From NCBI GenBank assembly GCA_024690865.1, contig JAILON010000029.1, forward strand, positions 1-64,000: a stretch of 64,000 bases of DNA, given 5' to 3'. Both the position numbers and the translations under genes were made by a program. The notes below the pieces were generated by a model. That model saw only the letters and a list, made by a program, of their open reading frames with translations. It was not told the origin of the DNA and did not search any database. This DNA comes from Treponema sp. GTDB taxonomy: Bacteria; Spirochaetota; Spirochaetia; Treponematales; Treponemataceae. Numbering within the stretch: position 1 is the stretch's first letter; each line of letters begins with the position of its first letter. Of this stretch, positions 21,477 to 23,482 are shown piece by piece.

Positions 21477-23316
21477 CAACAGGGAGCTTTTTACAGCCCG
21501 CTTTCCCGCCCTCGCAGACATGCTGAAGGAGGAGATGGAAGGCTTTGAACGGAAGCTTGCGGAAGGAAGCCCCCTTCCCCTCTCCGTGGAACCTGCGAAA
21601 AACGGCAGCCCGACTGCATCGGAAAACGGAACGATGCTGCATTCAAAGTACAGTCCCGACCGGGAAGCAGCGCAGCAGGCAGGCTCGTTCAATGCAGACG
21701 AAGAGCAGTCCGCGATTTTCTTCTCCTGCGGCCTGGGCTATACGGCCATAGCGCTGTGCAAAAACAGGCCCGACGTTCCCGTGGTCATAATCGAGGAGAA
21801 GGCTGAATACATCTTCCAAGCCCTGTCTGTCCTTGACTGGGCTCCCGTCCTGACCCATCCTGCAATCAGCCTCCTGATAGGGGCGGATACAGACAGCGTG
21901 GCCGGCATACTGCGCCAATACGACCTGAAGAAGGCACACGTCTTTGCCGTCCCGGCGCAGGGAGTCCACAGCGCGGAATACTTCAAGCAGATACGCCTCC
22001 TCATGGAGCAGGACAAGCGCAAGGACGACACAAACACCGCCACCTTGGAAAAATTCGCCCGGCTCTGGCTGTCCAACACCTGCAGGAACATCAAGCAGCT
22101 GGACAGACTGGACGGAATAAACAGGTACTTAGGAAAGGGAACAGGGATTCCCTTCATCGTCCTGGCGGCGGGTCCCAGCCTGGACCGAGTTTTGCCCTAT
22201 TTGGCGCGGCTCAAGGAACGGGCCGTCATAGTCTGCGTGGACACGGCACTCCGTTCATGCCTCCACGTGGGGGTAGAACCGGACTTCATCGTACTTGTAG
22301 ATCCGCAGTACGCCTGTGCAATGCACCTGGAGTTCCTAGCGGCCCCCTCCTCCATCCTGATTACGGAGGTCGCAGCCTGGCCTTCGGTGTTCAGGTTTGA
22401 GTGCCGCGAGAAAGTCCTCTGCTCTTCGATGTACCCGCCGGGCCAATACTTTGAGAAAAAGCTGGGCTGGAAGGGCCGGCTCGGGGCGGGGGGCAGCGTC
22501 GCCACGACGGCATGGGATTTTGCCCGCTTCTGCGGGGCGACAGAAATTTTTCTGGCAGGGATGGACCTGGGCTTTCCCGGCAGGCAGACCCACATACGCG
22601 GTTCCCAGTTTGAAGAGCGGGAACATCGGATTTCAAGCCGCCTGTACCCATCCGAAAGCCAGAGCACGGCGGCCCTGTTGAGCGATGCCCCCATCATCCT
22701 GAAGGACTATGCCGGAAACGAACTCCTTTCCGACAAGAAGATGTCCCTCTTCTCCTGGTGGTTTGAAAAAAACTGCACCCTTGCAAAGGAGCAGGGAGTA
22801 AAGACCTACAGCCTGACAGCGGAAAGCCTTGCAATAGAGGGGATAGAAAGCTTCCCGCTGGACGAATTCCTGAAGCGGGAGGAAAAGCGGGCAGAAAAAG
22901 AGGCTTTCTTCGCTCCAGCAAGCAAGGCTGGCCCGGAGGGCGACAGCAGGGAAAACGGCCCGTCTCCCCAGTTCGAAGACGTCCTCTCAAGTTTCATTGG
23001 CGACATGGAGCGGATGAAAGACATGGCGGCAAAGGGAATCTCCCTCTGCGACAAGGCCATCGTGAACAGACTCAAGGCCCCGGAGGTCTTTGCGGAGCTG
23101 TCCCGACTGGACAGCGCGATACTGCGGTCCGAAAGCAAGGAGGCAGCGGCCTTGGTTTTCCCGACGGAGCGCAAGCTCAAGGAGCTTACCAAAGGGCTTC
23201 CCGAGGACAAGACCTTGCATTCCCTCTACTACAGTCGGATAATCTATAGGGAGCTAAAAAAAGCCTGCCAGGATTATACCGAATTTCTCTCAAGTTTTTC
23301 CACGCTCCCCCGATAA
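21457..23316 (+). CDS. MptE-like / motility-associated (Maf-like) glycosyltransferase family protein
   Basis: GIPFIVLAAGPSLDRVLPYL, VIVCVDTALRSCLHVGVEPDFIVLVDPQ, GSVATTAWDFARFCGATEIFLAGMDLGFPG motifs; TTG start with ggaggg SD. Confidence 0.8.
   Translation: MNSIWNSNRELFTARFPALADMLKEEMEGFERKLAEGSPLPLSVEPAKNGSPTASENGTMLHSKYSPDREAAQQAGSFNADEEQSAIFFSCGLGYTAIALCKNRPDVPVVIIEEKAEYIFQALSVLDWAPVLTHPAISLLIGADTDSVAGILRQYDLKKAHVFAVPAQGVHSAEYFKQIRLLMEQDKRKDDTNTATLEKFARLWLSNTCRNIKQLDRLDGINRYLGKGTGIPFIVLAAGPSLDRVLPYLARLKERAVIVCVDTALRSCLHVGVEPDFIVLVDPQYACAMHLEFLAAPSSILITEVAAWPSVFRFECREKVLCSSMYPPGQYFEKKLGWKGRLGAGGSVATTAWDFARFCGATEIFLAGMDLGFPGRQTHIRGSQFEEREHRISSRLYPSESQSTAALLSDAPIILKDYAGNELLSDKKMSLFSWWFEKNCTLAKEQGVKTYSLTAESLAIEGIESFPLDEFLKREEKRAEKEAFFAPASKAGPEGDSRENGPSPQFEDVLSSFIGDMERMKDMAAKGISLCDKAIVNRLKAPEVFAELSRLDSAILRSESKEAAALVFPTERKLKELTKGLPEDKTLHSLYYSRIIYRELKKACQDYTEFLSSFSTLPR
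23290..23316 (+). promoter_or_regulatory. Candidate sigma-28 promoter
   Basis: TCAAGTTT-N11-CCCGATAA versus TAAAGTTT-N11-GCCGATAA (7/8 and 7/8, exact spacing). Confidence 0.55.
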
Positions 23317-23322
23317 TAAAAA

Positions 23323-23482
23323 TAGATTGTGATTGAGGTCCAAACTGATTGATGGGTAAGAGCGTTAATCAGCTTCAACCTTATACAGTTTCCTTCGGAC
23401 GTAATTTTGACATCCAGACGTCCGAGGGGAATTGTATTACCTCTCATTTTAAGAGCCGGAGTTTCCCCTCCGGCTCTTTTTT
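23323..23482 (+). ncRNA. Candidate structured small RNA
   Basis: Stem-loops CUGAUU..AAUCAG (23345-23372) and UCGGACGU..ACGUCCGA (23395-23425), ending in an intrinsic terminator; no convincing CDS. Confidence 0.45.
23452..23482 (+). terminator. Rho-independent terminator
   Basis: AGAGCCGGAG-TTTCCC-CTCCGGCTCT followed by TTTTT. Confidence 0.9.

Follow-up and report, generated by a model that had tools for sequence, protein, structure and literature searches.

A putative FliA-dependent small RNA family of the Treponemataceae with predicted flagellin pairing in one species group

FliA-dependent small RNAs and the Treponema locus

In E. coli, small RNAs (sRNAs) controlled by the sigma factor FliA (sigma-28) act on the level of flagellin and on the number of flagella (PMC10578931). 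A FliA-dependent sRNA is also described in C. jejuni, where overexpression of CJnc170 (FlmR) shortens the flagella and lowers motility (PMC11187230). We are concerned here with the interval between the gene of an MptE/Maf-like protein and ispG in a stretch of 64,000 nucleotides from Treponema sp. (contig JAILON010000029.1), the whole of which is called the window below. This interval is probably a stand-alone gene for a FliA-dependent sRNA of about 160 nt, belonging to a family that is specific to the Treponemataceae and is predicted to pair with mRNA of the flagellin gene flaB in one group of species. That a real FliA-driven sRNA is made from it appears very likely.

The likeness to the E. 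coli and C. jejuni sRNAs would lie in the mode of working only; homology was neither tested nor is it claimed. With the E. coli sRNAs the Treponema RNA would share the control by FliA and the effect on flagellin, the latter predicted here from the sequence; the E. coli RNAs, however, derive from untranslated regions (UTRs) in an Hfq setting (PMC10578931), whereas the Treponema RNA would be an independent spirochaete gene with an invariant loop. With CJnc170 it would share the dependence on FliA, but C. jejuni is an unrelated organism (PMC11187230), and direct pairing with flagellin mRNA is a prediction for the Treponema RNA. As for the promoter, the start of flaB2 in T. denticola was mapped by rapid amplification of cDNA ends (RACE), and its -10 element, CCGATAA, was assigned to sigma-28 (PMC9481697). 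The sRNA promoter here has a -10 element of the same type, but the flaB2 promoter drives a flagellin gene rather than an RNA, and its -35 element is given as TTAA.

The family appears to be previously unrecorded. Rfam 15, searched at gathering and relaxed thresholds, gave weak matches to a few sRNA models, none reaching the gathering score, and what likeness there is to these families rests on the terminator. Searches of openly licensed full texts, supplementary lists of predicted RNAs (e.g., PMC8040213) excepted, turned up no account of an RNA of this kind in Treponema. An earlier account drawn from the letters of the window (the sequence-only reading) had proposed a sigma-28-driven sRNA at this place; the invariant loop, the family-wide distribution and the complementarity to flagellin are new beyond it. 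The filament of spirochaetes is assembled from several flagellins whose proportions are fixed, and to our knowledge little has been established about the post-transcriptional balancing of their levels. An sRNA that is driven by FliA and predicted to target a flagellin would provide a directly testable link to this balance; where its linker matches the flaB ribosome-binding site, it may tune the amount of flagellin made.

Conservation, covariation and fold

A BLAST search over the genus found 11 clear homologues that are 71-95% identical. The close relatives were aligned, and 13 pairs of the resulting consensus fold have changes on both sides; 96.9% of the cells are paired, and none of 500 shuffles was as good on covariation for the full RNA. 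In the core stem, compared over 54 distinct sequences, 9 of the 10 pairs have changes on both sides and the covariation score is 0.497, as against 0.204 when shuffled (again 0/500), with the qualification that this alignment was fitted to the model and its counts therefore lean towards structure. Conservation and stem covariation in relatives were among the checks that the sequence-only reading had named for itself, and the RNA came through this one.

More than 80 fetched relatives have the same order of parts: a TAAAGT-N14-CCGATAAT promoter, a hairpin with the loop GACAUCC(A/G)G, a linker and an intrinsic terminator. The loop sits on the covarying stem and is invariant in the 54-sequence core alignment. 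A covariance model of the RNA alone, run on 200 genomes of the genus, gave 12 strong and about 30 weak matches; those of the weak matches that were read have the hairpin loop GACAUCCAG, with flanking bases that vary in a few, a sigma-28-like promoter before it and a terminator after it. In many other clades the loop of the terminator is GUGUGAG, whose T-run-associated occurrences in 1.9 Mb (both strands) number 86 in the RNA and 2 elsewhere. The window's clade is without GUGUGAG and has the linker UUACCUCUCAU instead. At three loci (L023, L026 and L393) the core loop contains an additional small hairpin on its 5' side, with GACATCCAG kept.

The 162-nt RNA of the window has a folding energy of -67.1 kcal/mol, with a z of -7.6 relative to shuffled sequence and of -6.0 when the terminator is left out. 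Both stems of the sequence-only reading exist, but UCGGACGU..ACGUCCGA had been given too short an extent and is in fact part of an 18-pair stem, while CUGAUU..AAUCAG is further closed by a UGAGGU/ACCUUA helix which that reading lacked. The intrinsic terminator was rightly placed at the end of the RNA, with its stem at 23451-23478 and a T run behind it. The RNA thus appears to be a discrete one ended by its own terminator; among the homologues, L010 is without a recognisable terminator. A protein-coding reading was rejected, since RNA covariation is present and no frame of a small open reading frame (ORF) inside the RNA is kept across the clade.

The promoter

A sigma-28-like motif had been claimed at 23290-23316, with a -10 element that includes the stop codon of the upstream gene, and both statements hold true. 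The motif TCAAGTTT-N11-CCCGATAA is found there, and the TAA stop of the MptE/Maf ORF (21457-23316) occupies 23314-23316 within its span. Among the 84 fetched homologues, 74 score at least 12/14 against TAAAGT-N14-CCGATAAT, compared with 3 of the 4715 control windows from the same loci (0.06%); at loci with several loop matches the best-scoring one was favoured, which makes for a small bias. The promoter is independent evidence because the models that found the homologues do not include it, the RNA covariance model beginning after the -10 element. A sigma-28-type promoter sequence stands at the right distance upstream of the RNA. In L002-L007 it overlaps the end of the Maf gene; the 14-nt spacer varies there, with TCAAGT and CCGATAAT staying the same. 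In L008-L011 the Maf gene stops upstream of the promoter, which is still kept.

The motif has two further matches across its own genome, neither at a clear flagellar gene, and these therefore do not form a regulon map. At another locus, L244 (G000:C99:4463-4488, minus strand), a sigma-28-like AAGT-N14-CCGATAAT lies directly 5' of the ATG of a gene whose product, about 247 aa long, looks secreted, and this may be chance.

Distribution

The core-hairpin model found the RNA in 146 of the 200 genus genomes, with few exceptions as one match per genome, and the refined model found it in 168 of 245 family genomes, covering 12 of 20 genera. From the rest of the phylum it is essentially absent, the single match outside the family being marginal (E 0.047). 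A pattern search recovered diverged copies (GACAUCCGGAUG or similar) in five complete genomes of the genus g15, in G226 and in two more that the model had missed; in g15, whose complete genomes have 2.8 Mb, the core stem now reads CGGCAU/AUGCCG and is still paired. A scan of 84,980 species for the promoter together with the loop gave 85 stretches. Eighty of these are in Treponema and uncultured relatives (T. bryantii, T. brennaborense and others), and the remaining 5, in unrelated bacteria, are about what chance would give for a pattern of this length. The co-occurrence of the RNA with fliA is uninformative, as all 30 genomes tested have fliA. Put together, the genome comparison establishes, at the level of sequence, the promoter, the core hairpin with its GACAUCC(A/G)G loop, the linker, the terminator, the single copy and selection on the pairing.

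Pairing with flagellin mRNAs

When the RNAs were compared with the flagellin leaders, the linker in one species group was found to form an antisense match of 9-19 bp with one flaB paralog, at its Shine-Dalgarno region. The complementarity to the flaB leader extends over 17 bp in genome G105 (CUAUGUUUGCUUAAAAA with UUUUUAAGCAAACAUGG), 16 bp in G196 (leader UUUAAAGCAAACAUGG), 11 bp in G122 (leader CGUAAACAUGG) and 19 bp in G126 (leader UUUUAAACAUGGAGGGUAU). That this base pairing has a function in the species group showing it is rather likely. By the mechanism that we propose, FliA would transcribe the sRNA along with the late flagellar genes, and the RNA, ended by its terminator, would act in trans through base pairing. 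In the T. bryantii-like group, the linker would pair over the Shine-Dalgarno region of one flaB mRNA and block the binding of ribosomes. Such pairing predicts that the translation of this flagellin is repressed in a manner coupled to FliA activity, which would thereby limit the paired flagellin and adjust the protein mix of the filament. Elsewhere in the family, and also in the window's clade, the linker has taken on another sequence, and the shared task is presumably carried out by the conserved loop through another mRNA or a protein. The invariant loop must have a function common to the whole family, one for which the flaB leaders do not account. A wider version of the idea would give the family-wide RNA two parts: a fast-evolving, flagellin-reading arm, which would link flagellin translation to FliA activity through pairing at the flaB Shine-Dalgarno region, and a fixed second function, in which the GACAUCC(A/G)G loop would bind a partner of its own. 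This version is speculative.

The statistics on the flagellin pairing used fixed linker windows; automatic trimming had removed the pairing segment in several RNAs. Matched partners have a mean of 21.6. When the partners are permuted the mean is 16.9 (sd 0.56; 0/5000), and background start regions come to 14.4, though matched pairs share ancestry and several statistics were tried. The other two flaB classes gave p 0.12, or nothing, and p 0.002, the latter partly driven by G126, which was placed in that class by its start residues. The sites could be aligned in 17 genomes, where 8 intermolecular pairs are changed on both sides (1/500 shuffles) and the pairing falls to 36-57% in slid registers; the sites of this test were anchored on a shared AAACA/UGUUU core. 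The shared ancestry and the anchoring weigh against our reading, and so do four other results. The flaB pairing is significant in a subset of the genomes only. In the window genome, the match of the linker to the flagellin leaders does not exceed its match to other start regions (p 0.32). The loops of the RNA, used as seeds against flaB leaders, gave no clear excess, and the invariant loop is without a partner there. Lastly, the promoter-like motif taken alone, within the window, is weak, at chance level and not significant: there is one match to TAAAGTTT-N11-GCCGATAA at <=3 mismatches where chance would give 0.41. The motif gains its strength from the comparison with the homologues. Covarying complementarity to a target mRNA was thus found for one flaB paralog in the species group and not in the window genome, and that flaB is a target in the window's species as well is doubtful.

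A candidate pairing of the window's clade, GGGAAUUGUAU with the flaB leader AUACAAUUUCC (11 bp, in G000 and G174), is not kept in G069 or G076 and is probably chance. The flaB leaders have features of their own. Where two flaB genes form a pair, the leader of the second (L248, L249, L252, L254, L255) includes, upstream of the Shine-Dalgarno sequence, a long conserved stretch in which a GGGGGCGCAA motif and hairpins occur and which resembles a structured regulatory leader. The first of the pair (L247, L248, L251, L269) has, in many species, a conserved GATGTAGCCTTGTAA motif some 80-100 nt before the start codon.

Alternative explanations

The RNA could be FliA-driven and yet have a protein or several other mRNAs as its main partner, held by the GACAUCC(A/G)G loop, with the flaB linker as a lineage-specific addition. 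From clade to clade the linker is replaced completely and the loop stays the same, the loop has no clear match in the flaB leaders, and GUGUGAG, the second loop, is one that this RNA has to itself; against this, the flaB pairing does covary in one group. We regard this explanation as unlikely. Far less credit is due to the idea that the RNA sequesters CsrA and thereby releases flagellin mRNAs from it. For T. denticola, CsrA sites have been reported close to the Shine-Dalgarno sequences of flaB (PMC9481697), but the ANGGA motif that a CsrA sponge should conserve occurs in only 17 of 53 homologues, and this candidate was set aside as highly improbable.

The neighbouring genes suggest two further explanations. 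The commonest gene order is Maf, RNA, HD-GYP gene, and in many loci the HD-GYP gene starts on the same strand roughly 100-200 nt after the loop, as would befit a cis-acting leader or attenuator of that gene. This position is not found at every locus, though: the window's next gene is ispG on the other strand, a DUF975 or CobW-like gene follows elsewhere, and L053 and L092 are among the loci that differ. In L052 and L058 the HD-GYP gene 3' of the RNA even has its own sigma-28-like promoter (TCAAGT..CCGATATA and TAAAGT..CCGATAAT, respectively). The RNA might also be a functionless 3' end of the Maf-gene transcript together with its terminator, given that it is usually directly 3' of Maf (all 11 close homologues adjoin a Maf/MptE gene) and that its promoter overlaps the Maf stop codon in the window. 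It also occurs without an adjoining Maf gene, however, has a conserved promoter that is also found outside the gene, and carries a covarying stem and an invariant loop. The replaceable neighbours on both sides and the HD-GYP gene's own promoter argue against both explanations; the leader is improbable and the Maf 3' end more so. The sequence-only reading had left it between a motility-regulon sRNA and a 3'UTR-derived RNA. The independent sRNA gene is favoured over the 3'UTR origin because the promoter persists where Maf ends upstream and the RNA occurs elsewhere without Maf.

Genomic context

The coordinates are collected in Table 1. Two statements of the sequence-only reading about the surroundings proved correct, namely that ispG is on the opposite strand and that the window contains fliA.

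Table 1. Features at and around the predicted sRNA gene, in window coordinates
Feature	Position	Strand	Basis
-35 element TCAAGT of sigma-28-type promoter (family consensus TAAAGT)	23290..23295	+	motif match, homologue comparison
-10 element CCGATAAT, 14 nt after the -35, overlapping the Maf-like gene's stop codon	23310..23317	+	motif match, homologue comparison
Predicted small RNA, ~160 nt	23323..23483	+	start inferred from promoter, end from terminator
5' domain: helix UGAGGU/ACCUUA (23334-23339 with 23378-23383) around the CUGAUU..AAUCAG hairpin	23334..23383	+	consensus fold
Core hairpin, 18 pairs (23385-23402 with 23418-23435), family-wide covariation	23385..23435	+	fold, covariation
Invariant loop GACATCCAG	23409..23417	+	homologue comparison
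Single-stranded linker UUACCUCUCAU, conserved in the window's clade; flaB-antisense segment at the same position in other clades	23437..23447	+	alignment
Intrinsic terminator: 11-bp stem and T run	23451..23483	+	sequence, fold
Upstream neighbour: MptE/Maf-like protein gene (PF01973, PF20157)	21457..23316	+	
Downstream neighbour: ispG (GcpE), convergent; same-strand HD-GYP gene here in most relatives	23636..24751	-	
fliA, cognate sigma factor (TIGR02479 match region)	36687..37364	-	HMM match

Between the terminator and ispG, the window has about 150 bp (23484-23635) in which T runs and GGCC-type repeats abound. In L002, L004 and L005, ispG lies almost directly 3' of the terminator.
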